Source: Phoenix dactylifera
Taxonomy: Eukaryota > Streptophyta > Magnoliopsida > Arecales > Arecaceae
Reading direction: 5' to 3'
Assembly (NCBI RefSeq): GCF_009389715.1
Contig: NC_052399.1
Span: 19,099,646-19,163,645 of the forward strand
DNA length: 64,000 nt
The position numbers were made by a program, and so were the translations under genes. This document shows, in pieces, positions 36,940 through 60,524 of the stretch. Below the pieces are notes generated by a model. It did no database searches and was not told the DNA's origin. It worked only from the letters and a program-made list of their open reading frames with translations. Every line of letters begins with the position of its first letter. Positions within the stretch are counted from its first letter, which is position 1.

Positions 36940-37510
36940 TTCACATAAGTTTAAATACAACACTTGTTTGTGGAAAAACGTTATAGATCTCTCTCTTTCA
37001 TGATAATACGAAAATTAAATTCACAATAAATTGTGTCACGAGAGACCTTCTGCATTCTTTGATTTCAGAACTGTGACTCTATTTGAAAGGAAGAATTGTG
37101 AAATGAAACTTAAAGTTGGAATTAGTCACCAAATAAATAGACTTTAAAGCTGACCAAAGAATAATTTGTCGGCTGTCATAAATTCCCATAAATGTCAAAC
37201 AATTTATTTTATCTCGTAGATACACAGAAACAATTGAGATTCCATCCATGGACATATCTGCAATTGATTAAAAAAATTAATGCAGTGGTTCCTCAACGAA
37301 AGAAAGAAATTAAGGTATAAAATAATAATATCTTCGGTTACCTATCTCCAGATATCTTATCTAGTCATTCTATGAAAGAAGGAAGAAAGTTACTGCCCCC
37401 GCGGTTATTAAATAATCTGATAACTAATTCGCTAACCACTTCACGTCCTTTGCCTTTCCTCCCTGCGGTCCTTCTCTGTTTCTCTCCATGGGGTCCAAAG
37501 AGAGGATAGG
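36940..37510 (+). pseudogene. Ghost TBL copy: promoter, 5' UTR and first 23 coding bases only
   Basis: From about 36985 the sequence tracks the promoter of gene B (46391-46923) almost base for base, including TAGATCTCTCTCTTTCATG, the 'GACCAAAGAATAATTT' block, GGTTATTAAATAATCTG and the CTCTGTTTCTCTCC leader. At 37488 it enters the TBL coding start (MGSKERIG, compare MGSKARIG in A). After the GGATAGG at 37504-37510 the match jumps to sequence found downstream of gene C (from about 55978). The body of this gene is therefore gone. A short shared ATAGG lies at the join. It implies a former B-like copy here. Confidence 0.8.
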
Positions 37511-37574
37511 TGGGGAAAGGAATTCATTTATTGAAAAGAATAATGGTACAAATTATATTTCTCAAATAGAATAA
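37488..37574 (+). other. Chimeric 28-codon open frame across the deletion join
   Basis: The TBL start codon runs through the join into former 3'-flank sequence and stops after 28 codons. It keeps a TBL promoter, so a transcript is possible. Function is doubtful. Confidence 0.4.
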
Positions 37575-37780
37575 TGGATCAATTTGTGTCCTTTATATGT
37601 ATCAGCTCGCTCTTCCTTGAAATTGCTAATGAAGTCTTGACTTCTTAGCATGATTTAATAATCACTAATTTGTAATGGGGCTGTACATTGTCCCTCATGA
37701 TTTCTTAGCATGATTTAATAATCACTAATTTGTAATGGGGCTGGAAAATTATGAGGAATCCCCGAAGGCATGTGATTAAG
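37506..37780 (+). repeat. Copy of gene C 3' flank, with a 60-bp tandem duplication
   Basis: 37506-37620 matches 55978-56100 (TGGGGAAAGGAATTCATTTA and onward). Within it, TTCTTAGCATGATTTAATAA and the following bases occur twice (37641-37682 and 37701-37742, period 60). The equivalent stretch after gene C has one copy. Confidence 0.8.
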
Positions 37781-38780
37781 GGGTTTGGGTCGTATCTTCT
37801 GCACAAAAGAATGATTCATCTTCTTTCGTAACTTTAACTGTTGGATGCGAGCCAAGGTTGAATTTAGAAAAGATACAACCCAAACTCATGATTAAGTTGG
37901 TTGTACGCTGAAAGAAAAATCATGTTAATAGACAAATAATAGCAAAAAAATTCTCTCAAAATATACTCAAAGGATTGGAGACGAAAAGTGCCGCCTCATC
38001 AAGCTAGTAAAGTTTTTAATAGTTGGATTGGTAACCTCGGACTAAATTTTAAAGAGATATACATACATTTAGAGGCTAGTTTATATATATAAAAAGAATA
38101 ATTTACAAGAATATACATATAAATAGTAAATTTACAAGAATATCCATATAAGTTTAGATATTTATTAGAATATATATATATATGCAAAAAGAATGATTTA
38201 TAAGAGTAAATGCACAAATAATAAATTTGGAAAGATATATATATAATTTGAGATATTTGTAAAGATATACATGCACAAAATTCTTCCACTTATTTGATGT
38301 CGAGCTTATAGAGAGAGAGATAAACACAACATTTGTTTGTGAAAAGAAAATTATAGATATCTCTACAATAAAAACATGTAAATAAATTCACAATAAATCA
38401 TGACCATATCTAAAGGAAAAATTGTGAAATAAAACTTAAAGTAGGGTTAAGTCTCCAAATAAATAGACCTGAAAGCTGACCGGAGAAGATTTTATCGACT
38501 TCTATAAATTTTCATAAATGTTCAATCAATCTTTATTCTTCTAGATCTTATGGAAATTCCTCGTAGATGCAAAAAATTGAGAGTCCATGCAAATTTGCTC
38601 GAAAGTATACTGCATCCATGGACATATCTGCAATTGATGGAAAAAAGATGGAGTTCTTGCTCGACAAAAGAAAGGAATTAATGCATAAATTATATATTTC
38701 CTGTTACCTGTCTCCGGCCATCTTTAACTGAATCCAGTCATGCTATAGAAACAAAGGAAGAGAGTTACTGCCCTCGTGGT

Positions 38781-38788
38781 TATAAATA
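38781..38788 (+). promoter_or_regulatory. Candidate TATA box of TBL gene A
   Basis: TATAAATA 79 bp before the ATG. Gene D has TATAAAT at 57267-57273, 88 bp before its ATG. A second AT element (CTATAGAAAC in A, CTATAAAAAC in D) lies about 40 bp further upstream, so which one is used is open. Both promoters also share the distal AT-rich block 38040-38290 / 56480-56770. Confidence 0.5.
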
Positions 38789-38859
38789 ACCTGATAGCTA
38801 ATTCATCAACAACCTCACGTTCTTTGCCTTTCCTCCCTGCGGTCCTTCTCTCTCTCTCT

Positions 38860-40926
38860 ATGGGGTCCAAAGCGAGGATAGGCTTCGGTCCTCTCCTATT
38901 CCACTGCGTTCTTTTAGCACTCCTTGTGGCCTCCTCGCATGGTGTAATAGTGGGGAGTTCGAACGGGGGAGGGAGCTTGGCCCAATGCAACCTGTTCCAA
39001 GGGAGCTGGGTCTACGACGAGTCATACCCTCTGTACGACTCGGCGAGTTGTCCGTTAATTAGTACAATCGATTTCGATTGCCAGAAGAGTGGCCGGCCGG
39101 ATACGAAGTACCTCAAGTACAGGTGGAAGCCCGATGGCTGTGAGCTCCCGAGGTTGGTTCGTAACCTTTTATGCTATCTCAATCAATCTTCTTTGAAATA
39201 AATTGTTGATGCCTGATATAATATATTTGTTTAGATATCATACATGAAATATACAATTGAGTGTTGTTGCTTATGCTGTGTTTAGCTTACCTTTTAGTTA
39301 AAAGTAAATCATAGATTAGATTTCAGAAATTGATATCTAATTTTCTTGCGTCGAATTGAGTGACTTGGGATGGATCTAAACGTTCATTGGTGCAATGGTT
39401 GTGTAGATTCAATGGCAAGGATTTCTTGGAGAGAATGCGGGGGAAGACGATAATGTTCGTGGGGGATTCAATAAGTTTGAATCAGCGGGACTCGCTCCTC
39501 TGTTTGCTGCATGCGGCAGCACCCAATGCTAAGTTTAAAAGGTCCTATAAAAACCCGGTCACTAGTTATAGAATTGAGGTTCGTATCCCAGTTTTTTTTT
39601 TTGCCCTTTTGTTTTAAATTAAAGATTCACTTGACTTTAATTTAATTCTTGAGAAAGAAAAGGACATGCCACGTAAAATAAATTCTTCATGTCTTGATAT
39701 CTATAGATAAACCATTCTCTCTGAAGGGAGGAGTGACACCCTGTTGCCCCGCCTAATTTACACTCATCGAAGATATACTGCATGTCATTATGGTGCAATA
39801 TACCCAAAATACTTAATCCAAAATTCTGGCAGAGCCGAAACATGGTACAAAAAGAAGTTCCAAGACCGCATGTCACCAAGAATTACTGCTGTACACCAAT
39901 ATACTTTGGATTGGGATCGCAGGCATTAAGTTGACTGCAGAATTTTGTACCATCATGAATAGTCGCCATATCATTCATCTTAGAGACAGATAGCTTTTAT
40001 TTATCCCGGTGTCACGGAGATAAGAGAGCTGCCTACTGTTCGATCTGACTCGTTTTTCACGCCCTTTTGTCTGCTAAATAGATTTATGGTTACAGGACTA
40101 CAACATCACGGTGTCACGTTGCCTCGCACAGTATCTGGTGGACATTGTCCCTGAGAAGATAGGGAATGTCATGAGGCTGGACTCCGTGCAACAAAATGGG
40201 CAAATCTGGCTTGGCGCAGATGTTCTCATCTTCAACTCGTTCCTCTGGTGGAACCGCACCAATCCCGGCCGACCGTGAGATCCCACCATCCTGATCCCGT
40301 ACGTTCCATCACTCTCAGATCTGTTTCAGCAATTTTTGACCCTAGGATTGCATGGTGCAGATGGGACTATATTCAGGATGGCAACGAGATACTTAAAGAC
40401 ATGAACCACACGGAGGCTATGGCGAAGGCTCTGAACACATGGGCCAGATGGGTGGATTCCAACATTGATCCAAAGACAAAGAAGGTCTTCTACTTCGGAC
40501 TTCCCCCAATCCACCTGTTGTAAGTTATGGCACCATATCCATTTGGAAGTTGTCTACGAAGAAGCATAGCATGGTTCATACTGAATATAATTAAGTTCTT
40601 GTTTGCTTTCGTCTTTTACTTGTGGTTTTAATTGGGACAGTGGAGAGAACTGGGGCCAGCCAGGGAAGACTTGCGTCGGACAAACAGAGCCACTGATGGC
40701 GAGGACGTACCCGGGAGGTCCAATTCCGCAGGAAAGCATAGTGCGAGGCGTCTTAGGAAGTATGGCGAAGCCAGTCTACTTGCTTGACATAACTTTCCTC
40801 ACGCAACTCAGAAAAGATGGTCACCCGGGACGGTACAGCGGGGGTGATTGCACGCACTGGTGTTTAGCTGGAGTTCCGGATACGTGGAACCTATTGCTGA
40901 ATGCCGCCCTTCTTGAATGGAACTGA
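38860..40926 (+). CDS. TBL: TBL37-43/PMR5-like protein, tandem copy A
   Basis: Exons 38860-39152, 39407-39578, 40096-40274, 40361-40519 and 40641-40926 are joined by GT-AG introns with phases 2,0,2,2, giving 362 aa. A hydrophobic N-terminus ([17 protein letters not shown]) suggests a signal peptide or Golgi anchor. The TBL domain begins [21 protein letters not shown] is at 117-119 ([14 protein letters not shown]) and DxxH at 337-340 ([15 protein letters not shown]). Sequences such as [17 protein letters not shown] and the [11 protein letters not shown] block place it near TBL37-43. Members of that clade act on acetyl groups of pectin (TBL38 is reported as a homogalacturonan acetylesterase, PMR5 as a pectin acetyltransferase), so pectin is the likely but unproven substrate. 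Exons 1-4 and introns are nearly identical to D; the 3' flank is nearly identical to B. Confidence 0.92.
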
Positions 40927-41457
40927 ATTTCCTTTTTTTCCCTCTGGAAATATATGAAAGCGTCGCAAATGAGAAGATTTTCATGTAAAATGGGGGAGAA
41001 AAAGTGTAATTACTAGAATCAGTTGCATGGGTTGTTTGCTATTTTCTTTTCTCACTAATAATTATCGTGGAATGCAAAAGTGAGACAATGAGGACATCTT
41101 AATGGGAATGTAAGTGTTTCTCAGTGCACAAATTGGTTTGCTCTTATTTTCTTCATAAAAAAAATGTTATTGTTTGAAAAAGAGAAGGTTCCATACTAAT
41201 ACAATAATAATATAAGTTTGAAAACTGCAAGAAATCATTACACATATCACGAAATTACAAACCGACTATCGATAATGCTTGAACAATCGGTATAAATATA
41301 TACATCAAATATTAATAGAAATCCAGCCACTTAAAAGTGATATAGTATATGATATCTCATAAATCTTTATTAATATTTTCAATGCTTTCCATTCCAATTC
41401 TTTTTAGCTTGATCCGGATTAATTATCTTTTCGACTTTGGACTAAATTTCGGTCACG

Positions 41458-41745
41458 TTTTCGGCTTGTGATGGAGAAATCAATAATATCACATTTTTCG
41501 CTTGTGCATGACGGGTCAATCAATAGTATCACATTTCTAACCTATTATGGGGCTACCGATAGTTTTACATTTTTGGTCTGTGATGGGGCAACCAGTGGTT
41601 TCACATTTTCGGCCTGTAACGGAGCAATCAATAGTATTACATTTCCAGCCTGTGATAGGGCAAACCGTTGTTTCACATTTTCGGCTTGTGACGGGGTAAT
41701 CAATAATATCACATTTTCAGCCTATGATGGGGCAACCAGTAACGA
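41458..41745. repeat. Minisatellite, about 8 x 36 bp
   Basis: Units of the form TTTTCGGCCTGTGATGGGGC followed by AACCAGTGGTTTCACA, about 36 bp long and diverged from one another, with another partial copy near 41838. The period of 12 codons makes a 98-codon repetitive open frame that I do not regard as a gene. Confidence 0.85.
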
Positions 41746-42348
41746 GATAAGCCCAAAGTCCTAATTCATTTAATCAGCTCACATTCACACATCAATTCCT
41801 TTTAAAACTTTATTTTTGGCTTAAATTAACCATGGTCACATTTCCAGCTCGTGATGGAGCAACCAATATAATATGGTTAGTTCAGAGCACCATATCCATT
41901 AGTCTGATTATGTAAGTGTAATTTATGCTCATATATGCATTTATCATACTATCAATCAAAAGCAAAAAATTATCAAAATATGATTTAATACTAAAATCAT
42001 CATAAAATCATTCTTGCTTCTTACTTATCTGAATCATATCATATCATTCATATATAGGTACAAAAAATTTGGATCATAATATATTATACATATATAGGTA
42101 CAAAAATATTTATATCATGCAGGTTAGTATACAAAGATTCTCACATCTTTGCTGCCAACCCAGACAGACTACCGCAATCTATGGACTGGGGTGCGCAGAA
42201 CTCTACTCAATATCCTCTTGTCCAAAAGATTGTTCTCTTACAAAACCAGGTCAACATCAAAAATTATCCGAAGTATCCAATAACCTAAAACCCTCTACTG
42301 ATCCACTAAAGGGGTCCATCATCATGTAGCAACCCAGAACTATCCAGC

Positions 42349-42919
42349 TAGGGGTGGCAATCGGGTCGGGTCAGATCATAAACGGGTCGGGTCACATGCA
42401 GGTTGGGTTAGAAAATCATAAACCTGAACCCGACCTGTTTATTAAACAGGTCAGAAATTACAATCTGAACCTGATCTGTTTATTAAACAGATAACCCGAC
42501 CCGACCCGTTTAACTTGTTTAATAAACAAGTAACCTATTTACCCAACCCGACCCGACCTGTTTAACCTGTTTGCCTAACCTGACCCGTTTAACCTGTTTA
42601 GACTTGCCCAACCCAACCTGTTTAACCTGCCCAACCCAACCTGTTTAAACCTGTTTAGACCCGTTTAACCTGTTTAGACCTGTTTAACCTGTTTAACCCC
42701 GTTTAAACTATTTAGACCTATTTAACCTGCCCAACAGTTAAACGGGTTAAATGGTTTAAATGGGTCAGCATCTAAAATCCGTATCCGACCCAATTAATAA
42801 ACAGGTTAAATGGGTCGACCTGTTTACAACCCAAACCTGTTTAGGCCAAACCCAAACCTGTTTATGGCGGGTCGAACATGGGTCGGGTTGGCGGGTCGGA
42901 TCATATTTTGCCACCCCTA
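42349..42919. mobile_element. hAT-type non-autonomous element, 571 bp
   Basis: Starts TAGGGGTGGCAA and ends with its exact inverse TTGCCACCCCTA, flanked by perfect 8-bp target duplications TATCCAGC (42341-42348 and 42920-42927). The interior consists almost wholly of degenerate short repeats built on AACCTGTTTA and CCCGACC words and has no coding capacity. It is inserted in the LTR sequence around it, so it is the younger of the two. Confidence 0.92.
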
Positions 42920-43552
42920 TATCCAGCGATCCTCACAACTAATGATCTCTCCGGATTGAGCTAGAGAGAGAAAGTACTAATAAAATGAGAGAAAAACTAT
43001 AGTACAAGATTTCGTTGGGCTTCTCCCTGCCCGGATGAATGTATCCCCATACAAAATTAGGGCCGACCATGAAAATAGATTTATATAGGAAGATATATGA
43101 GGCAAACTAAATAACAATGCCCAATTATTCGAATTAGTCAGCACAATATAATTTAATTCATCCGATCAAGAATCATATATCAAATCAAGGGAACAGATCA
43201 GGAGTTATCAATTATAGGTCCGATGGTGGCTGACAACAGTCGGGTGCAGGATCGACAAGGTCGACTAGGCAACAGTGTCCGGCGATCCAGATCAGTCCGC
43301 TCTAGCCAATCAAGCTAGTCAAATCATGAAATGAGAATCAAATCATGGTACAGGTAACACATTAGAGATTCATAATGAAATAGTTCAATGGTATTCGACA
43401 ATGGTCAAGGTAAGGCTAATGCGATAGGTGGTCGTAACGACATTAATCTAGGATCCTCTATTGGGATCGATTCGGACCCACCATGAAAACATCTAGGACC
43501 CTCCTACTGGGTCCACAGAAACACACAAAGAAAGGAAAACAATCTAGGTAGA

Positions 43553-43672
43553 GAGAGAAAGTCAATAGAGAAAAAAGTCCTAGTAGAGAGAATTCCATAA
43601 AGAGAGAGAGAGCGAAAGAGAGAGAGGAGAGAGGAGAGAGAAAGAGAGAGGGGAGAGAGGAAGAAGAGAGGC
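43553..43672. repeat. GA-rich tract
   Basis: Long purine run of GAGAGA/GGAGAGA words inside the minus-oriented LTR. Confidence 0.85.
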
Positions 43673-44486
43673 GTTCTCTTCTTCTACTCCAAAATAGGGG
43701 AGAGCCCATCTCTCATTTTCTTCTTTAGATCAGAGGGGGTGACAGCCATGATGGCCAGCCTCGATGATGGTGGCCATTAGCGGCCCGTCGGCCGCGGTCC
43801 TGCTGGCAATGGTGGTTGGCCAGCACAAGAAAGAAGGGTGAAGAACCCGAAGAAGGTGGAAGGCAACTCGGTCTAGATCTTGGCCAGCCCACTAATCAAC
43901 AGCTACATTTTATTAGGGTCCTAGATGACGATGAAAAATGGCCGAATTTCGGCTACCGACGATGATGAACAAGGAAGAAAAGGGGCCAGGACAGAATGCT
44001 CTATCTTTGGATAAAATTTTGGTGATTTGTCAGCTTAATTCAAAGAAAGTCGATGGCTAGATAAATAGAAGAAGAAGAGAGGAGGGTGGCTTGGGTCTTA
44101 CCTCAGTCCGGCGACGATCTGGCGAGGTTTCCGATGAGGAATCAAGGAGAAGACTCGGAGAGGAGGACTTGAAATCGGCGGCAGTTTCTGATGATTTTGG
44201 CGGTGGAAATCTGAGGAGAAGGAGAGATATATAGGCAAGTTCTCCAAGTTTGATTTGAACTCGATCTGCCCTCGGTTAGCCACCTTTTCTGTCGGAATTG
44301 GAGAGGAAGAAGACTCTGATGGGAGTCTTTTTCCCCACCTGGACCGTGCCACAGTGCACGATCGGGCGGGCCTAGCCCCTTTCAGGCCGGCCCACAAACC
44401 TACGGGACCGGGCTGGTAACAAGTTGGGTTGGGCCTGGCCCCTTCGGGCTGGCCCATGAGCCCTTTTATTTTTCTAGGGTATTACA

Positions 44487-45194
44487 GTAGCCATTCATCT
44501 GGATCCTCTCATGCATCAAATGTGTTTGATGCCAGTTTACCTAACTAACAGCTCTTCATTTTGTGAGGTTCGGTTTTGTCCATGACCATAATTAGATGTA
44601 TGGGTCTGTCTCAATTATTTAGAACCGGCTTTACATATCCTTATTTATCAAATAGAGCAAATTTGGATCCATTTTATAGTTTTCAATATATTCTCTGATC
44701 AACTACGTATCAACATGATATGTATCCATTTTGCTCCGATCATATTAACATGGTATAGGTATGTATTATGTGCGCATAACAAAGCCTATGATTTTATGAT
44801 ACATGGGACTGAGGCCTACTGAGAGTGAATCCATTCTTCTACATTTGTTTTGGCATTCTTAGTATTTTTTAGAAACTAGCCAATTGGGTTCTTAATGAAA
44901 CGGCAGAATTTGAATGTGTTGATAAGTTACCTTTTATTTTAAAAAAAGAACTTAAAACAAAAGCTCCTTAATATATTTAAACTAAAGTTGATTTATTGTT
45001 TATGAGCTTCACAATCATCTTTTATTTTATTATTAACTATATATGGCCGATAAGTTAAAATTTAAATGGTTTGGGACGAAAAGGACGATAATTTCCGACA
45101 CGACCCATTTACTTGACCCATCTGGTCCAACCTGTCAGATTTAAAGTCGAGCAAGAGTCGGCCAATTGCGACTTGCTAATAGGTCGAGTCAACT
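44487..45194 (+). repeat. Second copy of gene B 3' flank
   Basis: GTAGCCATTCATCTGGATCC and onward through CATCAAATGTGTTTGATGCC, TATGGGTCTGTCTCAATTAT and GCTTGCTAATAGGTCGAGTC matches 49180-49810 downstream of gene B in the same order and orientation. Together with 40940-41165 (which matches 48720-48945) it shows that gene A is followed by B-type flank, interrupted by the LTR insertion. Confidence 0.85.
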
Positions 45195-46375
45195 TATGGA
45201 TGCAAGTATAATAGGATCATATATTTCTATTTCAATTGTCTCTCCTTTTATTCTGTTTCCTGTGTTGCTATTTGTTTCTGGGACGAGACTCTGGCTGGGT
45301 TCATCCTTGGAATTAGATAGCTGGGTTTTTCCCTCGGAAAAAGTCCGATCATGTGTTCGGTTGGCTGGCTCGACCCTTCGCAACCGTCAATTTTTTCTCC
45401 CTTTTCTTTGTCTCTTTTCTCCCTTCAGTTTTTCTTCTTGTTGTCTTCTCTTTCCCTTGTGAATGTTATATGTCTGGCGAACCATTTGTAAGGCAAATCT
45501 CATAAATATTTAATTTGTCATATGCTTTTCGTCGCCGCAAGATTCGCTAAGCCCATAAGAGATTTCTAGGGTTTTAATTAAAACAAAACCAATTAATATA
45601 ATACTCGTAAAAACTGTATGACATTTCAATTATGCCATGGAATTTGTCCATACAGCGGGCTTTCCTTTTGGAGGGGGGAAACGTGCGGTGAAATAGTATA
45701 CCATATATTATACAACTAAAAGGATCACATGTCACTAGTGGACAACATCCTCCTTCCGTCTAAAAGGACTAGTGCATTTATATTTGGAAAGGAAATTAGC
45801 TTCCAGGTGGCAGGCAATGCAAAACTTATTTGTCCTAGTTACCAAACTTTGGAAATGAATCTGAGTGCATTTATTGACAAATTAAGTGGTATAGAAACTT
45901 TTTTTTATCATTCTAATACTGAATAGGAATGGTCTAACAGGCCAATCTTGTGAATTCTACCTCAAGTTGTTTAACTAAGTTAGTATTTGACAAATTTTGC
46001 TCAGAGGAAGAAGAGTAGTATCAGAATTGTCGAGCTGGCTACACCAAGTTTAATGAATTGCGATCCACTCTTGTGCGTACGGATGCACTAGCGAATTATT
46101 ATACCTGATTTCACATTTTCCAAAATTTAAAGAACAAGTCAGTCATAAAAAAATATATACTCAAATCATGCGCCAATCCGGTAATAAGGATCAAATATTG
46201 TGCCATTATGTTTTGATGGCATTAATGATTTCATTTTTATTGGATATAGTAAACAGAAGAGATATTATTTTATTTATCTTTAAAAGAAAGCTTTAAGAAT
46301 TCCTTCATGTTTTGAGTACCGAACGCAAGACTTTGCATAGCTTTTTCAGACTTTAAGGGCGTCCTAAAATTTTTT
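45195..46375 (+). pseudogene. Relic of a second gene C copy: intron 2 sequence only
   Basis: 45195-45430 matches gene C intron 2 at 51470-51690 (TTATGGATGCAA, AGCTGGGTTTTTCCC, AAAAAGTCCGATCATGTGT, CTGGCTCGACCCTTCGCA). 45470-46320 matches 52745-53615 of the same intron (CGAACCATTTGTAAGGCAAA type block; GACAACATCCTCCTTC; TTGCGATCCACT). The TRIM found in C's intron is absent here. A short final match (GACTTTGCATAGCTTTTTCA) skips about 300 bp of C. None of C's exons remain on either side: the left join meets B-type 3' flank and the right join meets the promoter of B. Confidence 0.8.
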
Positions 46376-46388
46376 TATTGTTCCCATT

Positions 46389-46923
46389 ATAGATCTCTCT
46401 CTTTCATGATAATACAAAAATTAAATTCACAATAAATTGTGGCATGAGAGACCTTCTGTATTCTTAGATTTCAGAACTGTGACTCTATTTGAAAGGAAGA
46501 ATTGTGAAATGAAACTTAAAGTTGGAATTAGTCACCAAATAAATAGACTTTAAAGCTGACCAAAGAATAATTTATCGACTGTCATAAATTCCCATAAATG
46601 TTCAAACAGTTTTATTTTTTCTCGTAGACACACAGAAAAAATTGAGATTCCATTCATGGACATATCTGCAATTGATGAAAAAAAAGATGCAGTGCTTTGA
46701 AAGAAAGAAAAGCAACGGTAATGTATTAAAAAAAAGAAAGAAATTAATGTATTAAAAAATATTATCTTCCGTTACCTGTCTCCAGATATCTTATCGAGTC
46801 GTTCTATAAAAGAAGGAAGAAAGTTACTGCCCTCGCGGTTATTAAATAATCTGAAAACTAATTCGCTAACCACCCCCCGTCCTCTGCCTTTCCTCCCTGC
46901 AGTTCTTCTCTCTCTCTCTCTCC
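46389..46923 (+). promoter_or_regulatory. Promoter and 5' UTR of TBL gene B
   Basis: Upstream sequence shared with the ghost copy at 36985-37487. TATAAAAG at 46805-46812 is a possible TATA box 119 bp before the ATG; a weaker TTATTAAATAAT sits nearer. A CT-rich leader (CTCTCTCTCTCTCC) precedes the ATG in all array copies except C. Confidence 0.5.
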
Positions 46924-48704
46924 ATGGGGTCGAAAGCGAGGATGGGCTTCGGTCCTCTCCTATTCCACTGCGTTCTTTTAGCACTCCTTGTGGCCTCCTC
47001 GCATGGCGTAATAGTGGGGAGTTCGAACGGGGGAGGGAGCTTGGCCGAATGCAACCTGTTCCAAGGGAGCTGGGTCTACGACGAGTCATACCCTCTCTAC
47101 GACTCGGCGAGCTGTCCGTTTATCAGTAGTATCGGGTTTGACTGCCTGAAGAGCGGCCGGCCTGATAGGAAGTACCTCCAGTACAGGTGGAAGCCCGATG
47201 GTTGCGATCTCCCAAGGTTGGTTCTTACTCTTATGGTGCTATCTCTATTAATCTTGTATGAAATAAGACAATCGAGACATGGATCCGCCTTGCGTCATGT
47301 CAAAAGTTTGATAAAATCTAACCTTCTTGCATCCTACTACGCCATTTGCTTTGAACATGGGATCGTCATGCGACTTGGGATGGATCTCAATGTTCATTGC
47401 TGTGCAGATTTGATGGCGAGGATTTCTTGCAGAGAATGAGGGGAAAGACGATAACGTTCGTGGGGGATTCAATAAGTAAGAACCAGCGGGACTCGCTCGC
47501 CTGCTTGCTACATGCGGCAGTACCTAATACTTCCGTTTCTTACAGTGACCCGTCCGGTAGTGTTCACTTTAAGGTTGGTATCCCAATCTTTTTCTCTTCT
47601 TTTTTTTTTCAATTGAAGCGAGTTAATTGACTTTAATTTTTAAGAAATCATCTTTTTCTTGGGAAAGAAAGGAAGGGACATGCCACGTGAGATAAATTTT
47701 CCTAGTACTAAATATGGTACCAAACTAAATGTTCAGGACCACATGCCAGATATGGAGGAAATTTAGTGGGTGCCATGATTGGGCTCCGTAGCATTACCGA
47801 CGAGCGCTAACCCCTCTGACACCAATATCTCTCACCCTTTCACTCTCTAATCAGCGGTCTTGCTGCAGGACTACAACGTCACGGTGACTCGCTTCCTCGC
47901 ACAGTATCTGGTGGACATTGTCCCTGAGAAGATAGGGAGAGTCCTGAAGCTCGACTCCGTGCAACAAAATGGGCAGGACTGGCTGGGCGCAGATGTTCTC
48001 ATCTTCAACTCGTTTCTTTGGTGGAACCGCAGCAATCCCGGCCGACCGTGAGATCTCACCGTCCTGATTCCTTGCGTTCCATTACCCTCAGATCAACTTC
48101 AGCAATTTTTGACGGTAGGATTTTATGGTGCAGATGGGATTATATTCAGGATGGCAACAACATACTTAATGACATGAACCGCACGGAGGCTATGGCGAAG
48201 GCTTTGAACACATGGGCCAGATGGGTGGACTCGAACATTGATCCAAACATTAAGAAGGTCTTCTACTTCGGAATTCCCCCAATCCACATGCAGTAAGTTG
48301 AGGCACCATATCCATTTGGAAGTTATCTACGAAGAAGCATAGCGTGGTTCATACTGAATATAATTAAGTTCTTGCTTGCCTTCGTCTTTTCCTTTTATTG
48401 TGTTTTTAATTGGGACAGTGGAGAGGACTGGGGCGAGCGAGGGAAGACTTGCGTCGGACAAACAGAGCCACTGATGGCGACGACGTACCCCGGAGGTCCA
48501 ATTCCGCAGGAAAGCATCGTGCGGGGCGTCTTGGGAAGTATGGCGAAGCCAGTCTACTTGCTTGACATAACTTTCCTCACGCAACTCAGAAAAGATGGTC
48601 ACCCGGGACGGTACAGCGGGGGTGATTGCACGCACTGGTGTCTGGCTGGAGTTCCGGATACATGGAACCTATTGCTGAATGCTGCCCTTCTTGAATGGAA
48701 CTGA
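46924..48704 (+). CDS. TBL: TBL37-43/PMR5-like protein, tandem copy B
   Basis: Exons 46924-47216, 47408-47573, 47869-48047, 48134-48292 and 48419-48704 give 360 aa with the same splice phases as A. Signal-peptide-like N-terminus as in A. GDS is at 117-119 ([14 protein letters not shown]) and DxxH at 335-338 ([15 protein letters not shown]). Exon 2 is 6 bp shorter than in A, C and D, and its last about 18 codons ([15 protein letters not shown]) are quite different from the other copies, while the flanking blocks are conserved. Introns are short. Predicted role as for the other array members: acetylation state of a wall polysaccharide, probably pectin. It looks intact. Confidence 0.92.
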
Positions 48705-50501
48705 TCAATTTCTTTTTTTTTTTTCCTCGGCAAATATATGAAAGCGGGGCAAATGAGAAGATTTTCATGTAAAATGGGGAAGAAGAAGTTTAATAACTAG
48801 AATCAGTTGCATGGGTTGTTTGCTATTTTCTTTTCTCACTAATAATTATCGTGGAATGCAAAAGTGAGACAATAAGGGCACCTTAATGGGAATATAAGTG
48901 TTTCTCAGTGCACGAATTGGTTTGCTCTTATTTTGTTCAGAAAAAAAAAGTTTGAGATGGATCGTTCATTAACAGGGCCCGACGAGAAGGACTTTTTTAT
49001 CTGCCTGAATCAGCGGTCTTTAAGTTACAATCGTGGATTTTCAAAACTCGTGCTAAAATGGAGCTGATGAGATATTTATTTTTATTTTTTCTTTTATAAC
49101 AAAGATGGCGCGTTAGGTATGAAGACCGGTGGGACAGATATCAATATGTGAACTTGTGGTCGCCATTCTTTCGAGCATCTGTAGCCATTCATCTGGATCC
49201 TCACGTGCATCAAATGTGTTTGATGCCAGTTTACCTAACTGACAGCCCTTCATTTTGTCAGGTTTGATTTTGTCCACAACCATAGTTAGATATATGGGTC
49301 TGTCTCAATTATTTGGAACCTGCTTTACATATCCTTATTTATCAAATGGAGCAAATTTGGATCCTCAACTGCATATCAACATCATATGTATCCATTTTGC
49401 TCTGATTATATTAAAATGGTATAAGTATGTATTATACGCGCTGCACAAAGCCTATGATTTTATGATACATGGGTCCGAGGCCTATTGAGAATGAATCCAT
49501 TCTCCTACATTTTCTTGGCATTCTTAGTATTTTTTAGAAACCAGCCAAATTGGTTCTTTTCTACTTTTTATATAAAAAAAGAATATCAAACAAAAGCCCC
49601 TTAATATATTTAAACTAAAATCGATTTATTGTTTATGAGCTTCACAAATCATCTTTTATTTTATTATTAATCATATATATGGCCGATAAGTTAAGATTTA
49701 AATGGTTTGGGACAGTGAGGACGATAATTTCTGACCTGACCCATTTACTCGGCCCATATGGTCCAACTTGTCAGGCTCAGCCAATTGCGGCTTGCTAATA
49801 GGTCGAGTCAACTTTGAGTTAGAGCCCCTAAACCCATTGGATCATATCACCATTGAAGGATGGTTGCGGTCGCCATCGGTGCTGACCCAAACCGCTTTCT
49901 CCCAAGATTCCATGCCAACGTTATGCGCGGTTAAGAAATTCTATAGGAAGACTGGTTTCAAGTCACCGTACCTGATGACCCAAACCGCTTCCTACCGAGT
50001 TTCCATGCCAACGTTATGCAGGGTTAAGAACTTCTAGGCACCCTCAAAGTATCTTTCTTTTCTTGAAAAAATTGAGATTGTTCTAAAACTATCGATTTCT
50101 TTTCTCATAGGAGTTTGAAAATAAGAAGAAGAAGAAGAACTATTGGTAACTATTGAAGGCAAAATTTGTCTCAAAAATTCAATGCGCGTAGGTTAAAGGA
50201 AGAAAACGCAGCAGTTTTATGAACGCCTCCTGACTTCCACCAAAAGAAGCTCGAGATGAAGCCATTCTTTTACGTCAAACTTGACGTTCACATTCCGCAA
50301 CTTACCTTCTCTTGCGAAACTCAGGTCAGGCCAAAAATGAGAAACCAACACGAGACAGACAGGCGTCTACATAAGCAACTGGTGAATGTATCCCTTTAAG
50401 GCCCCAAGACTCATCCCCGTCGCTTTTCGTCAGAAATCTCTTCCTTCCTTCGTTTCTTTCCTTGGCCTCTCCTCTCCAGTCTCTCCTCGTGCTCTCCCTC
50501 C
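48705..50501. other. Spacer between TBL genes B and C
   Basis: B's 3' flank (to about 49810) is the version also copied at 40940-41165 and 44487-45194. A pair of diverged tandem repeats with period about 86 bp (GACCCAAACCGCTTTCTCCC type units at about 49890 and 49978) follows at 49888-50036. C's promoter is not shared with A, B or D, and no TATA box is obvious. Confidence 0.6.
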
Positions 50502-53500
50502 ATGGGATCCAAGGCGCAAATGCGCTGTGTTCCTCTCCTACTCCGCTGCGTTTCTTTCGCCCTCGTGGCCTCTTCGTGGGGCGCGACGGTGGCCAGATTG
50601 AACCCGCCCGCGTGCGATCTGTTCGATGGGAGCTGGGTCTACGACTCGTCCTACCCTCTCTACGACTCAGCGAGTTGTCCCTTCATCCGCCGCGAGTTCG
50701 ATTGCCTCAAGTATGGCCGCCCCGATATGATGTACCTCAAGTACAGGTGGAATCCCAATGGCTGCGACCTCCCAAGGTGAGTCACCAATCCTTTCTCCCC
50801 CCTTCCTTCTCACATCTCTCCTTCCAATACGGGAGTCTGAGGATGGTGTCTTAGATTTGATGGTCGAGACTTATTGAGGAGGTGGAGAGGAAAGAAGATA
50901 ATGTTCGTGGGTGACTCGTTAAGCTTGAATCAGTTCGACTCGCTCCTGTGCCTTCTTCACGCGGCCGTGCCCAATGGCAGGACAAGATCTAACAGAACCG
51001 ACGCCCTCACCACCGTCACATTTGAGGTTGGTATTTCTGTCTCTGCTCCAGTCTAAGATTCATGCCACTTTATTTGTTAATAAATGTTGCCAGAGGTCCC
51101 ACATGTAGTGCCGGGATTAATCATTAGGTTTATTGTGGGATGGTAACGCTAGCTGGACTCGATTCTCGAACAGGGATCCCAATCATGGGATTGGCAAATA
51201 TTGACCCAACTTACCCTTGTTCTTTTTGATGTCCCCGCCTTATTCCGAGTGCTGTGATATATTCTTTTGCTTGTGAATTGTTATGATGGTATTGTTTATT
51301 AAGGGCCCCTATGGTATCATGTGGCCCGGCCTCAACCGATTCTAGAGAAAGAGATCCATCCATGTTCGCCGTCCTATTGTTGAAGAATACTTCCAAGCCA
51401 CGGGGCTCTATCATTTGTGAGGAAATAAGCTTCGTTGTCTTCGTTTCATGTTGAATTTAGCTTGCTAGCTTATGGATGCAACTTCTATTTCTATCGTCTC
51501 TCCTTCTCTTTTTTTCTGTGCCGTTATTCTGTGGCTGGGACCATCCTTGTAATTAGCTAGCTGGGTTTTTCCCATGGAAAAAGTCCGATCATGTGTCGAG
51601 TTGGCTGGCTCGACCCTTCGCACCCGTCAATTTTTTCGCTCTTTTCTTTGTCTCTTCCTCCCTTCAGTTTTTTCTTCTTGTGGTCTTCCCTTTTACACTT
51701 TTTTTCTTTTTTCTTCCATGCTTTGCATCCATCAAAGCTGGTGAAAACAAATTAGAAAAACATTACATGGTGTGAGAATCCGTGCGGGCGTGTGTTTAGT
51801 CCTACATCAGTTATTTGCTGGATAGATTTTGGGTACTTATACAGAATCAATGAATCCAAATAATAACTTCCGGCTAGCCATTTTGGGTGAGATTATAGGT
51901 TGTTACAAATGGTATCAGAGCGGATCCGGCCAATAACCTATGTGGACTAGGGGACACTGCAGCACGGATCCATTGGGGCTGACCACGGACCAATCGTGAT
52001 GTGTGTGATTAGATATGAATGGATTTGAACCCTTAGTCTGACGAGGACATCAGGGCTTGAACGAGGGGAGTATGTGAGGACCCGTGCGGGCGTGTGTTTA
52101 GTCCCACATCAGTTATTCGCTGGGTAGATCTTAGGTAGGGGAGTATGTGAGGACCCGTGCGGGCGTGTGTTTAGTCCCACATCAGTTATTCGCTGGGTAG
52201 ATCTTGGGTACTTATACAGGATCAAGGAATCCAAATAATAACTTCCAGCTAGCCATTTTGGGTGAGGTCCTAGGTTGTTACACATGGTCAATCTAACAAA
52301 AACTAAATCGTATTCAACAAGCCACTCCCATAAATTTAGGTCCCTAAATGCTTCATCCTAGTGATGTTTCTAGAGAAATTAATTTACGACGTTTCCTTTC
52401 ATAATAAACAGTAGTTACAAGTTTGAGAATGCAATACACTGAATCTTATTTTCACTGCTTTAGCCTATATTAGCCGAGCAGTCAAGATTAACCAATAATT
52501 ATAAGTTTTGAAAATGTGATATACTAGAAGAATCTTATTTTAATTGTTTTCGCCTATATCAGCAATCAGAACTAAACTATAAAGTGTTCCATAAGTTTGC
52601 ATGTTCTGATTTATAGCTTCTACTAAATTTCGCCTTCTAAGCATGTAATTTGCATGGACAAGATCAAGAACCTCGACAAATTCTTTTTGAGTTGAAGCTC
52701 TACCGTATGCATTGATGTGTTGCTAGAGTTTTAGAGAGAATGTTATATGTTTAGCGAACCATTTTGTAAGGCAAATCTCATAAATAATTAATTTGTCACA
52801 TGCTTTTTGTTGCCGCAAGATTCGCTAAGCCCATTAGAGATTTCTAGAATTTTTTTTTTAAAAAAAAGCAATTGATATAATACTCGTAAAAACTGTGTGA
52901 CACTTCAATTATGCCATGGAATTTGTCCATATATTGGGCTTTGCTTTTGGGGAGGGAAAGGTGTGGTGAAATAGTATACTATATATGATACAACTAAAAA
53001 GATCACATGTTACTAGTGGACAACATCCTCCTTCAGTCTAAAAGGATGAGTACGTTTATGTTTGGAAAAGAAATCAGCTTCTAGGTGGCAATGCAAAACT
53101 TATTTGTCCTAGTTACCAAACTTTGGAAATGAAACTGAATGTATTTATTTACAAATTAAGTGGCATAGAATCTTTTTTTTATCATTCTAATACTGAATAC
53201 GAATAGTCTAGCATGCCAATCTCGTGAATTCTACCTCAAATTGTTCAACTAAGTTAGCCTTTGACAAATTTTGCTCAGAGGAAGAAAAGTAGTATCAGAA
53301 ATGTCGAGCTGACCACACCAAGTTTAATGAATTGCGATCCACTGTTGTGCGTACGGATGCACCAGCGAGTTATTATACCTGATTTCACATTTTCCACAAT
53401 TTAAAACACACACACCTTGCTATCATTATCCTACTGCAAGTCGGTCATAAAAAATATATACTCAAATCATGCACCAATCCGGAACTAATGATAAAATATC

Positions 53501-55945
53501 GAGCCATCATGTGTTGATGGCATGAATGATTTCATTTTTATTGGATATAATAAACAGAAGAGATATTATTTTATTTATCTTTGAAAGAAAGCTTTAAGTA
53601 CTCCTTCATGTTTTGAGTACGGAAATTTGATCATTAGTTTGAACTAGTTTTCTGCTCTCTTTTTTCTCCCACGGAAAGGGAATGTTAATGGTTACCATCC
53701 CTTATTTGATTAACTTAATAAATGTAATCATATTTTTAAAATATATTTTTAACAATAAAAGAAGAACCTTCCTAGGCATGCTTTTTCATCTTTCTAGAAA
53801 AATGATACAGACTGCTGCCAACCTTGGGACCTAATTTTAGATGAATTTGTATATGGAAAAAAAAAGGGACTTGGAGCTAAATTTTTTTACAAAAGTGCAT
53901 TGATTTGCATTTATTTTTTTTACAAAAATGTCGCAACGATCTACTGATATCTTTGATTTTTAGAACCCAAGACTTCGCATAGCTTTTTCAGACTTCAAGA
54001 GCGTCCTATTTAAAACAAATAAAAGAAAAGATAAAGGACTTTGAAATGCTTAATGCAAAGCACCCAAGTCAGCATCTGTTGCCTGGTGCGATAATTCAGG
54101 TCTTTAAATATACCTTCTAAATTTAATAGTTAAGAGCAATACTTAATGTGCCTTCTCTTCAGAACAACCACCAGTTCCAATTGGCTATGGTAGGTTAGGG
54201 CTCATTATAAATACTCAAGATTTATGGAGCAAATAACTGATATGGGACTAAATATACATCCATACGGGTCATTATAAGATCCGATTAAATTTGAAACTAT
54301 TCTTGATTTGGAAGTGGATCAATTCAGTCCATTTAGAGCTCGAAGTAGAGGGGGCCCAGATTAATATTCTGTTAATTTTCTAACATTGGCTTTTGCCCAG
54401 AGAATCAGCTAACATTGGGATGGTTGCAGGACTATAAGGTGACGGTGATGTACTACATCACCCATTATCTGGTGGACGTTGTGAGAGAGAAGATTGGACG
54501 GGTTCTTAAGCTCGACTCCATCGAAGGTGGTCGAGTGTGGCTCCGCGCCGACGTGCTCATCTTCAACACATGGCATTGGTGGCCTACCAGGGGACCCGCC
54601 CAGGCGTGAGAACGCCATCCAATCCCCCCATTAATTTCTTTCACTTTGCTTACAATTAACCATAAGATTTTCACTCTTTTTTTTGGAGCTAAACCATGGG
54701 AGGACTTCGTGGCGGTGCAGATGGGATTTTATTCAGGACGGCCGCAAGATAGTTAAAGACATGGACCGCACAGTGGCTTTCTCCAAGGCACTCGCCACAT
54801 GGGCCAGATGGGTGGACTCCAGCATCATTCCAGCCACAACCAAAGTCTTCTACCAGGGAATCTCTCCATCCCATTACCAGTAAGTCACAGCAGAATTTTG
54901 CTTGTTAATTATCCATAATTAAAGACATAGTTAAATATCCTTTTAGTTTTATAGATTTTTTTTTTTTTTTTGGCATGAATATCCTTCTAAAACATCAAAC
55001 TCGCATGAATACCCTCTCCAAATTTATATTTCTTTCTCTATCTTATAAAATACTAGTTTTGCACAAATGCTCCTAATATAATAGTTCTTCTTACACTGTT
55101 GATAAAAACTATATTTATTTTAATTATAAATAAAATAGATTTTTAAAATTATTTTTGCTTGCATAAATGTTTCTCTTTAAACACATACCAATTAATAATA
55201 TTTTAATCATTTTAATTTGAAACCGTTAATTTTTTAACGGAGTTAGATGGTATGCGTATATATAAAAAATAAAAATAACAAAACAAATATTTTACGAGGG
55301 TATATATATAAATATTTATTTTTAAGAGATATATATCTAAAATTTGATATTTAGCCGGATATTTATGTAAAAAAAACTTTAGTTTTGTTCTTTCTATCCA
55401 TGTCCCTGCTCCTAATAATTAATACCTCATTCACATTTTAACCCCCAACCCCCCCCCCCCCCCCAAAAAAAAAAAAAACTTCGCTCATATTGAATGAGAA
55501 TGATGGGAATGTGGCTGAGGGTACGCGATAGTGTACTTTTTTTTATTTTTTGGCTGTGATGTTGATTAACTTTAATTACCAGCTTTTGTTGCAAGCCAAT
55601 CTTTATATTTATTGTCTTTAACAACTAGCGTGTGATTATTTGGGAACTAGTGGAGAGGATTGGGGGGCGTCGTACAAGGAAAGTTGTTCGAGGCAATCAG
55701 AGCCATTGAACGCATCAACTTATCCCGGAGGTCCAGCGCCACAAGAAGCAATCGTGAAGAATGTTTTGAGCACCATCTCGAAGCCAGTGTATTTGCTGGA
55801 CATAACCTTCCTCTCACAGCTCAGGAAAGATGCTCACCCGTCAAAGTATGATGGAGTCGGCTTCCAAAATGACTGCAGCCATTGGTGTCTTCCGGGCCTT
55901 CCGGACACGTGGAACCAGCTCATGTATGCAGCTGTTATGAGATAA
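50502..55945 (+). CDS. TBL: TBL37-43/PMR5-like protein, tandem copy C with 3.4-kb intron
   Basis: Exons 50502-50776, 50855-51026, 54430-54605, 54721-54879 and 55651-55945 give 358 aa, with the same phases as A, B and D. The N-terminus is hydrophobic ([16 protein letters not shown]). GDS is at 111-113 ([14 protein letters not shown]) and DxxH at 335-338 ([16 protein letters not shown]). It is the most divergent array member: it has TWHWW rather than SFLWW in exon 3 and an extra GVGFQN segment before DCSHW, which is nearer to typical TBL38-41 proteins. Intron 2 (51027-54429) holds a TRIM and another LTR scrap. Intron 4 (54880-55650) holds a Mutator-type MITE and a C/A homopolymer run. All splice sites look usable. 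Confidence 0.9.
51771..52282 (+). mobile_element. TRIM element, complete in outline, with an extra partial LTR
   Basis: Two 137-bp LTRs (51771-51907 and 52146-52282) run from TGTGAG to GTTGTTACA. The primer-binding site TGGTATCAGAGC (51910-51921, complementary to initiator-Met tRNA) follows the 5' LTR, and a purine-rich GAGGGGAGTA precedes the 3' LTR. Flanking 5-bp duplicates CATGG (51766-51770 and 52283-52287) are perfect. An additional partial LTR start lies at 52073-52145. The two LTRs differ at roughly 12 of 137 sites by eye, mostly transitions, so the insertion is old (millions of years). It lies in intron 2 of gene C. Confidence 0.93.
54205..54285 (-). mobile_element. TRIM LTR fragment
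   Basis: TATAAATACTCAAGATTTAT and ATAACTGATATGGGACTAAA match the reverse complement of part of the TRIM LTR. Fossil scrap in intron 2 of gene C. Confidence 0.6.
54951..55377. mobile_element. Mutator-type foldback MITE in gene C intron 4
   Basis: Long inverted arms carry GCATGAATATCCTTCT-type words on the left and their reverse forms on the right. Perfect 9-bp target duplicates TTTAGTTTT lie at 54942-54950 and 55378-55386, the length expected of Mutator-like elements. It is the same family as 62670-63110. There is no coding sequence. Confidence 0.75.
55449..55478. repeat. Homopolymer C-run then A-run
   Basis: 16 C followed by 14 A in gene C intron 4. Run lengths here may be unreliable for sequencing reasons. 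Confidence 0.8.
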
Positions 55946-55977: not shown

Positions 55978-56674
55978 TAAATAGGTGGGGAAAGGAATTC
56001 ATTTATTGAAAAGAATAATGGTACAAATTATATTTCTCAAATAGAATAATGGATCAATTTGTGTCATTTATATGTATCCGCTCGCTCTTCCTTGAAATTG
56101 CTAATAAAGTATTTGAACATGAAATTGATGTACATTGTCCCTCATGACTTCATTAGTGTGATTTAATAATCGCTAATTTGTAATGGGGCTGGAAAATTAT
56201 GAGGAATCCCCAAAGGCATGTGATTAAGAGGTTTGGGTCGTATCTTCTGCACAGAAGAATGATTCACCTTCTTTTGTAACTTTAATAGTTGGATGCGAAC
56301 CAACGTTAAATTCATGAAAGATACAACCCGAACCCATGATTTAGTTGGTTGTACGCTGAAAAGAAAAATCATGTTAACAGACCAATAATAGCAAAAAGAT
56401 TCTCTCAAAATATACTCAATGAATAGGAGACAAAATGTGCCACCTCATGAAGCTAGTAAAGTTTTTAATAGTTGGATGTGGTAACCTCGGACTAAATTTC
56501 AGAGAGACATACATACATTTAGAGAATAGTTTATATATATAAAAAAGAATAATTTACAAAAATATACATACAAATAGTAAATTTACAAGAATATCCATAT
56601 AAGTTTAGATATTTATAAGAATATATATGCAAAAAGAATAATTTATAAGAGTAAATGCATAAATAATAAATTTG

Positions 56675-56736
<62 letters not shown>

Positions 56737-57354: not shown

Positions 57355-59447
57355 ATGGGGTCCAAAGCGAGGATAGGCTTCGGTCCTCTCCTATTCCACT
57401 GCGTTCTTTTAGCACTCCTTGTGGCCTCCTCGCATGGCGTAATAGTGGGGAGTTCGAAAGGGGGATCAGGGAGCTTGGCCCGGTGCAACCTGTTCCAAGG
57501 GAGCTGGGTCTACGACGAGTCATACCCTCTTTACGACTCGGCGAGTTGTCCGTTAATTAGTGCAACCTATTTCGATTGCCGGAAGAGTGGCCGGCCCGAT
57601 ACGAAGTACCTCAAGTACAGGTGGAAGCCCGATGGCTGTGAGCTCCCGAGGTTGGCTCGTAACCTTTTATGCTATCTCAATCAATCTTCTTTGAAATAAA
57701 TTGTTAATGCCTAATATAATATATTTGTTTGGATATCATGCATGAAATATACAATTGAGTGTTGTTGCTTATGCTGTGTGTTTAGCTTACCTTTTAGTTA
57801 AAAGTAAATCATAGATTAGATTTTAGAAATTGATATCTAATCTTCTTGCGTTGAATTGAGTTACTTGGGATGGATCTAAATGTTCATTGGTGCAATGTTT
57901 GTGTAGATTCAATGGCAAGGATTTCATGGAGAGAATGCGGGGGAAGACGATAATGTTCGTGGGGGATTCAATAAGTTTGAATCAGCGGGACTCGCTCCTC
58001 TGTTTGCTGCATGCGGCAGCACCCAATGCTAAGTTTAAAAGGTCCTATAAAAGCCCGGTCACTAGTTATAGAATTGAGGTTCGTATCCCAGTTTTTTTTT
58101 GCACTTTTGTTTTAAATCAAAGATTCACTTGACTTTAATTTAGAAGAATCTTTCTTTTCTTGAGAAAGAAAAGGACATGCCACGTAAAATAAATTCTCCA
58201 TGTCTTGACATCTATAGATAAACCATTCTCTCTGAAGGGAGGAGTGTCACCCTGTTGCACTGCCTAATTTACGCTCATCGAAGATATACTGCATGTCATT
58301 ATGGTGCAACATACCCAAAATACTTAATCCAAAATTCTGGCAGAGCCGAAACATGGTACAACAAAAAAGTTCCAAGACCGCATGTCACCAAGAATTACTG
58401 CTGTACACCAATATACTTTGAATTGGGATTGCGGGCATTAAGTTGACAGCAGAATTTTGTACCATCATAAATAGTTGCCATATCATTCATCTTAGAGACA
58501 GATAGCTTTAATTTATCCCGGCGTCACGGAGACAAGTGAGCTGCCTACCGTTCGATATGACTCGTTTTTCACACCCTTTTGTCTGCTAAATAGATTTATG
58601 GTTACAGGACTACAACATCACAGTGTCACGTTGCCTCGCACAGTATCTGGTGGACATTGTCCCTGGGAAGATAGGGAATGTCCTGAGGCTGGACTCCGTG
58701 CAACAAAATGGGCAAATATGGCTTGGCGCAGATGTTCTCATCTTCAACTCGTTCCTCTGGTGGAACCGCACCAATCCCGGCCGACCGTGAGATCCCACCA
58801 TCCTGATCTCGTACGTTCCATCACTCTCAGATCTGCTTCAGCAATTTTTGACCCTAGGATTGCATGGTGCAGATGGGACTATATTCAGGATGGCAACGAG
58901 ATACTTAAAGACATGAACCACACGGAGGCTATGGCGAAGGCTTTGAACACATGGGCCAGATGGGTGGATTCCAACATTGATCCAAAGACAAAGAAGGTCT
59001 TCTACTTCGGACTTCCCCCAAGACACATGTCGTAAGTTACGGCCCCATATCCATTTGGAAGTTGTCTACGAAGAAGCATAGCATGGTTCATACCGAATAT
59101 AATTAAGTTCTTGCTTTCCTTAATTCGTCTTTTCCTTTTATTGTGGTTTTAATTGGGACAGCGGAGAGAACTGGGGCGAGCGAGGGAAGACTTGCGTCGG
59201 ACAAACAGAGCCACTGATGGCGAGGACGTACCCGGGAGGTCCAATTCCGCAGGAAAGCATGGTGCGGAGCGTCTTGGGAAGTATGGCGAAGCCAGTCTAC
59301 TTGCTTGACATAACTTTCCTCACGCAACTCAGAAAAGATGGTCACCCGGGACGGTACAGCGGGGGTGATTGCACGCACTGGTGTTTAGCTGGAGTTCCGG
59401 ATACATGGAACCTATTGCTGAATGCCGCCCTTCTTGAATGGAACTGA
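57355..59447 (+). CDS. TBL: TBL37-43/PMR5-like protein, tandem copy D
   Basis: Exons 57355-57650, 57907-58078, 58608-58786, 58873-59031 and 59162-59447 give 363 aa with the array's common phases. GDS is at 118-120 and DxxH at 338-341 ([15 protein letters not shown]). It differs from A at about 2 of 172 sites in exon 2 and 4 of 179 in exon 3 by eye, and the introns also match closely, so the A/D duplication is recent. It has one extra Ser codon near residue 38 and [11 protein letters not shown] where A has [11 protein letters not shown]. Its 3' flank is a diverged homologue of the A/B type and then runs into LTR sequence at about 59590. It looks intact. Confidence 0.92.
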
Positions 59448-60524
59448 GATTATTCCCTCAAGAAAGAATGTAAATGGGATGTTTTTTCTTCCTTAGAAAT
59501 AATTAGAGTGACATGAATAAGTGGTGTCATGTTAGAATGGGGGGTTAAAGTTTAATTATTAGAATCAGCTACATTTGGTTAATTATACATTGTACCGTTG
59601 AACTCTATCATCATGAATTCCTATTGTGTTAATTGTACCATGGTCTGATTCTTGTTTTATGAGTTGACTGGCTTGATGGGCCAAAGTAGATTGACTCGAA
59701 TCGTCGGATGCTGTTATTTAGTCGACTCTGTCTGTCTTGCACACGACTGTTGTCAGCTACCATTGGACCCATAATTGATAACCCCTGATCTATTAATTTT
59801 TTTTTATTGGATATATATATTTTAATCTGATGGATTGAGTTGTGTTGTGCTAATCGATTCGAACAATTGGACGTTGTCATCTAGCTGGTCTCGTATATTT
59901 TTCTATATGAATCTATTTTCATAGTTGGCCCTGGTTTTGTATGGGCTGCAGCATCTGGGCAGGAAGAAGTCCAACAAAATCTTACACTCTAATTTGTAAA
60001 TTGAGATAAGACCCTGACCTTTTATTTTTAATTTTTAATTAAAAATATAGAGAATATAGGTAATTCAAATAATAGAACTCTAAAATTTGGTAATTACAGG
60101 ATAATTGATTTGTTAATATGGCAAGTGATTGATAGGAGATAAGTTGGTGTTATATTGATATCAAATTGACTGAACATGTTAGGTGTGGATTGGTAGCGTT
60201 GTAGCTGTGTTGGATTCCGATAGAGGTAACAATTCTTGTACCTGGTCACCAGTTATATATATATAGGTGCGCATGCGTGTTTATTGGTTTGTACCATTGG
60301 ATTTGCATTATGAGATTTAAATCGATAAATTTGGTTTGGCCTATGATGACATATTTTCTATGATTCCAATATAAATATATTTGTATAGTTATTATATGTG
60401 TCAAATATTAGAAACATGAATATGTGAACAAAGATATCTTGAATTTGAAAAGAATTCCTTGTATAAAGTGGTTTGGTAAGAGTGATATATAAATCTGACA
60501 AACAAAATATGGTTTGGACTAATC

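Follow-up and report, generated by a model that had tools for sequence, protein, structure and literature searches.

A chimeric TBL gene and a stranded promoter in a tandem array of Phoenix dactylifera, possibly left by one-sided repair

In a tandem array of TBL genes of Phoenix dactylifera, the promoter, ATG and seven codons of one gene lie stranded about 1.37 kb upstream of the ATG of another, gene A. Judged from sequence, this locus is best read as a gene of the type of its neighbour B (here B1) whose body has been replaced by about 3.4 kb of sequence of the type of gene E, and the unit at 36991-46323 that contains it as a tandem sister copy (B1-C1) of the gene pair B-C. We tentatively take gain of the B1-C1 copy, followed by a one-sided repair that replaced the B1 body, as the best explanation.

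The window referred to throughout is the whole 64,000-nucleotide stretch analysed, C8:19099646-19163645 of a 773-Mb assembly of 2391 contigs, and positions are counted from its first letter. It holds four TBL genes, all on the + strand, for which exon ends were placed by hand on homology, without transcripts:

38860-40926, + strand: gene A, an open five-exon TBL gene with an E-type body (homology-based model without transcripts; exons 38860-39152, 39407-39578, 40096-40274, 40361-40519 and 40641-40926)
46924-48704, + strand: gene B, an open TBL gene and the closest relative of the sequence to the left of the join described below (the left arm)
50502-55945, + strand: gene C, an open TBL gene whose 3' flank is of the type found to the right of that join (the right arm)
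57355-59447, + strand: gene E, an open TBL gene, of whose type the body of gene A is

Each of the four has a five-exon open frame with GT-AG introns. A domain scan of genes A and C found the two TBL family domains, PMR5N (PF14416) and PC-Esterase (PF13839), in both (79 and 272.5 bits in A, 84.7 and 301.4 bits in C), and gene A matches the solved chain of ESKIMO 1 (PDB 6cci, E 3.4e-61). Identity to gene A is 95.3% for E and 86.9% for B, and A and E differ by a dN of 0.021 and a dS of 0.049. The next TBL gene behind E lies beyond the window (C8:19166635-19171645) and is a diverged paralogue. A tendency of TBL genes to cluster is described for Eucalyptus grandis in the available portion of PMC11337025.

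Upstream of gene A and behind it, the array is made up as follows:

36991-37487, + strand: B1 promoter and leader, a sister of those of gene B by alignment and K2P distance
37488-37507, + strand: B1 start codon and first codons (MGSKER and part of codon 7), by alignment to B
37506-37510, + strand: the join, with an overlap of AT (2 bp) with the B type, and of ATAGG (5 bp) only with the state of A and E
37488-37574, + strand: chimeric open frame of 28 codons plus stop (TAA at 37572-37574), identical in a second contig, C597
37506-38245, + strand: copy of the 3' flank of gene C, far upstream of E (55981-56690), by alignment
38270-38859, + strand: E-type promoter of gene A (K2P 0.039 to E)
40905-40941, + strand: second edge, at the stop codon of A, where E-type sites give way to B-type sites, with mixed patches from about 40500
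40927-41168, + strand: B-type 3' flank behind gene A, by K2P and local alignment
44487-46323, + strand: remnant of a C-type sister copy (C1), with pieces of the C 5' flank and intron 2
46324-46396, + strand: border between the C1 intron piece and the gene B promoter, containing sequence that matches neither side

The left arm (36991-37487) differs from the B promoter (46397-46923) by 33 substitutions over 493 aligned sites with 38 gap columns, a K2P of 0.070 that divides into 0.055 in the distal and 0.108 in the proximal part; the proximal part stands at 0.175 from A. The match to B continues to 37507/46943, and a fainter homology to the A/E-type promoters extends back to about 36952. The right arm begins at 37506/55981, 35 bases separating 55981 from the TAA of gene C (55943-55945), and its first 95 bases are 99% identical to 55981-56075. 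The switch from the B promoter and first codons to the C 3' flank, reported in a first-pass annotation of this DNA, is real: the two alignments meet at 37506/37507. Two repeats lie nearby: a dispersed A+T-rich repeat at about 38082-38280, in the C-flank copy, and a stretch of about 42 bases at 37640-37740 that is present twice in the window, once in C597 and once upstream of E.

The parents share no extended homology at the left breakpoint, as in joins of the end-joining type; template switching would leave the same homology-free breakpoint. The motif ATAGG, placed in both parents by the first-pass annotation, is absent from gene B. In the overlap region A and E read GAGGATAGGC, but gene B reads GAGGATGGGC both in the window and in C597, with ATGGG in the place of ATAGG, and gene C reads CAAATGCGC at the corresponding place. 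The overlap with B is 2 bp, an unremarkable length, and a five-base microhomology is not upheld for gene B as proof of mechanism. Because the left arm is a sister of B, an overlap of 2 bp is the likelier reading of the alignment, although the lost left parent may have had the A/E state. By a simple random-base formula, the chance of an overlap of at least 2 bp is 0.17 and that of at least 5 bp is 0.006.

From 37506 to the stop codon of A the order of C 3' flank, E promoter and E body is kept. The promoter and introns 1-4 of gene A stand at a K2P of 0.024-0.048 from E, compared with 0.18-0.25 from B in the promoter and introns 1-3 and 0.070 in intron 4. Where A, B and E can be compared between 38640 and 40479, 21 of 23 bins of 80 bases have more A/E-shared than A/B-shared sites, the exceptions being the bins at 38960 (1 A/E against 3 A/B) and 39760 (none). 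The following stretch, 40480-40879, is mixed (11 A/E-shared and 7 A/B-shared sites), and from 40927 the pattern is reversed (8 A/E-shared and 56 A/B-shared sites), with the E flank fitting the alignment poorly. Past its stop codon, A is at a K2P of 0.079 from B over 242 sites and of 0.241 from E over 99 sites with 39 gap columns. Local alignment of the 3' flanks scores 405 for A-B. The A-E score is 73, against a maximum of 61 in 200 shuffles, and the B-E score is 63, against a maximum of 60. Homology was available for this right edge because A, B and E are 96-99% alike over their final 250 coding bases (40680-40926, 48458-48704 and 59201-59447); given the K2P of 0.18-0.25 between A and B in the promoter and introns 1-3, the last exon of the three genes has likely undergone gene conversion. 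The second edge thus lies in homologous sequence and the block it closes is of the type of another array member, E, as in repair by one-sided invasion.

The C1 remnant further downstream is at a K2P of 0.096-0.105 from pieces of 49181-53624. No exon was found in 44487-46323, nor any TBL protein match there among the matches listed (113 of the 220 candidates scored). We read 46324-46396 as a probable tandem-duplication border. The remnant carries a second loss scar near 45195, where the counterpart of about 49814 is followed directly by that of about 51480, with the loss of C exons 1 and 2. An inverted repeat of 77% identity is found at 43006-43393, behind A, and at 59593-59983, behind E.

Contig C597 (193,612 bases, of which 1-30000 were compared) is collinear with window positions 20356-51013, its main blocks being 97.3-99.5% identical to the window and one 258-base block 87%. 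It is probably the other haplotype, the alternative being a recent duplicate elsewhere; it ends inside gene C and covers neither the C 3' flank nor E. The join and the 28-codon frame are identical in C597 and the window. A 25-base string across the join, allowing up to 2 mismatches, occurs at two places in the assembly, in C8 and in C597, and a reversed control pattern at none. Arrays of similar genes are hard to assemble, and C8 and C597 belong to the same assembly. C597 is nevertheless collinear with scattered differences and lacks a 571-base repeat of the window, yet has the identical join, and we consider an assembly artefact or collapse extremely improbable. Collapse had been raised in the first-pass annotation as a ground for doubting the join, and the second contig, with its identical join and frame, speaks against it.

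The repeat of about 571 bases, at 42349-42919 between A and the C1 remnant, is of a dispersed kind that recurs at 90-92% identity in at least 38 other places among 40 of 2922 candidates scored, and is probably a young insertion differing between haplotypes. The copy of gene A in C597 is also open. The two copies of A show 58 differences, at 37 of which the C597 copy agrees with E and at 17 the window copy; 12 of the 37 agreements of C597 with E lie within 37500-37799, a stretch in which the window copy carries a small local change.

The two edges of the replaced segment, the parental type on each side of them and the presence of the arrangement in two contigs are observed. From these we infer the order of events, the repair route and the origin in a single event as follows. 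An array with B, C and E would first have acquired a tandem copy, B1-C1, that began at the B promoter and ended within C intron 2. Later the B1 body, from codon 7/8 to about the stop codon, would have been replaced by about 3.4 kb comprising C 3' flank, E promoter and E body. A single repair of a break in B1 may have sufficed: the downstream end would have entered the last exon of E, which is nearly identical, and been extended to the left by copying E and then part of the C 3' flank. Once released, it would have been joined without homology to the other break end at codon 7/8. The product would be gene A, with an E-type promoter and body and a B1-type 3' flank. A repair in one event is supported by the sharp left edge without extended homology and by the change in A from E type in the promoter and introns 1-4 to B type past the stop codon. 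According to the accessible portion of a study of targeted integration in Arabidopsis cells (PMC9369344), homologous recombination may mend just one end of a break, and the discussion cites cases with end joining at the other end. The reciprocal join, searched for in one assumed form with up to 2 mismatches, had no match in the assembly, which says little because such a product need not be inherited.

Divergence bears on the relative age of the two steps. Non-coding differences number 98 of 2046 between the E-type block and E and 201 of 2374 between the rest of the unit and B/C (p 1.6e-6), counted over segments whose borders were chosen by the analyst and which leave out exons, 37641-37709 (the local haplotype change), 38081-38269 (the dispersed A+T-rich repeat) and 41169-44486, 45196-45288 and 45454-45469 (no clean counterpart). 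The lower divergence of the E-type block is as expected for a replacement that would be younger than the tandem copy. The left arm alone (33/493) does not differ significantly from either the E-type block (p 0.09) or the rest of the unit (p 0.12), and the C-flank part of the block is uneven, with a K2P of 0.025 and then of 0.092. Conversion between A and E could also have lowered their divergence, mimicking a younger replacement; the mixed patches at 40500-40755 and the agreements of the C597 and window copies of A with E make such conversion possible.

Other routes to this arrangement need to be weighed. The last exons of E and B1 could have undergone unequal crossover, which would have expanded the array and made the chimeric gene A. 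End joining could later have deleted an upstream B-type gene from its codon 8 onwards, together with all that followed as far as the end of a C-type gene. The reverse sequence of these two steps, on different haplotypes, is a variant of this route. The outcome would be identical and does not separate the two routes, and the two-step route draws on the same close similarity of the final 250 coding bases; according to the part of PMC3789795 available, unequal crossover and conversion readily affect tandem genes, and other array material, the C1 exons, has been lost nearby. It requires two events where one suffices, and no intermediate was found in this one genome. We regard it as nearly as likely as a single one-sided repair, which stays slightly ahead by parsimony only.

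The first-pass annotation had instead proposed one end-joining or microhomology event, in which a B-like gene from its codon 8 onwards and all that followed, up to the end of a C-like gene, were deleted; we take this as an in-place deletion within a copied B-C-E block. Its account of the join holds, in that B start and C flank are joined without extended homology; taken alone the left join is exactly such a deletion, and the divergences of the left arm and the E-type block, as given above, are not significantly different. The proposal fits poorly with what lies behind gene A, where the 3' flank and the C1 remnant are of B and C type and not of E type; the TBL gene that follows E, beyond the window, is the diverged paralogue. 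Because B-like sequence sets in immediately after the A stop codon, a plain B-C-E copy would need a further exchange, and we consider this version unlikely.

As noted at first pass, promoter, leader and ATG survive and head a 28-codon chimeric frame (37488-37574), present in both contigs. The further suggestion that this is a micro-gene or regulatory transcript, with the B1 promoter and the C-type 3' end acting as a small transcription unit, found no support. When the same start was joined to random places in the window (n=20,000), 33% of the simulated joins reached at least 28 codons, with a median of 19, and we reject the length of the frame as a signal. Lineage changes, counted against A and E, number 17 in the stranded promoter and 17 in the B promoter, with 13 unresolved, and give no signal of promoter decay or constraint either way. 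The intact promoter, leader and ATG, the identity of the frame in two contigs and a number of promoter changes no higher than in B would favour a functional unit, whereas frames of this length are common in simulated joins. On these grounds we think a functional micro-gene or regulatory transcript very improbable. Most probably the stranded piece is inert, or gives no more than a short transcript ending in the C-type 3' flank; such a transcript is possible because an intact promoter, leader and ATG precede that flank. Equally remote is a combined reading in which a single one-sided conversion would have replaced the gene body and stranded the promoter, and the locus would now make a short transcript modulating A; if true, it would be a birth route for tiny genes in tandem arrays.

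We see in this locus a clear but ordinary trace of gene-cluster reshuffling, of modest interest and known kind. It offers a clear natural example of tandem arrays making chimeric genes: a single 23-kb stretch shows the two edges of a 3.4-kb replacement and the types of its donor and recipient. What looks like a simple deletion can mark one end of a replaced gene, so that the opposite end needs to be examined before deletion is inferred. Were the stranded promoter active, the locus would be a modest instance of a new transcript being born. A topic search without the species name found no description of this locus in the portions of the TBL, tandem-array and break-repair literature that it covered, which is not proof of absence from print.

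Set against the TBL family, the stranded piece comprises seven N-terminal codons only, without any domain. Repair by one-sided homologous invasion in plants was reportedly described by Puchta in 1998. The locus resembles such repair in having one edge in homologous sequence and the other joined without homology, and differs in that the process is read from an old natural locus rather than observed as a repair. In Arabidopsis tandem arrays cut by nucleases, deletions and hybrid genes were obtained, and one large-deletion product was attributed to a microhomology of 1 bp (PMC3789795, in the part available). As far as that part of the study goes, the likeness is that array material was lost and hybrid genes were joined; the difference is that the event described here is natural and that its hybrid frame enters a 3' flank and not the frame of another gene.
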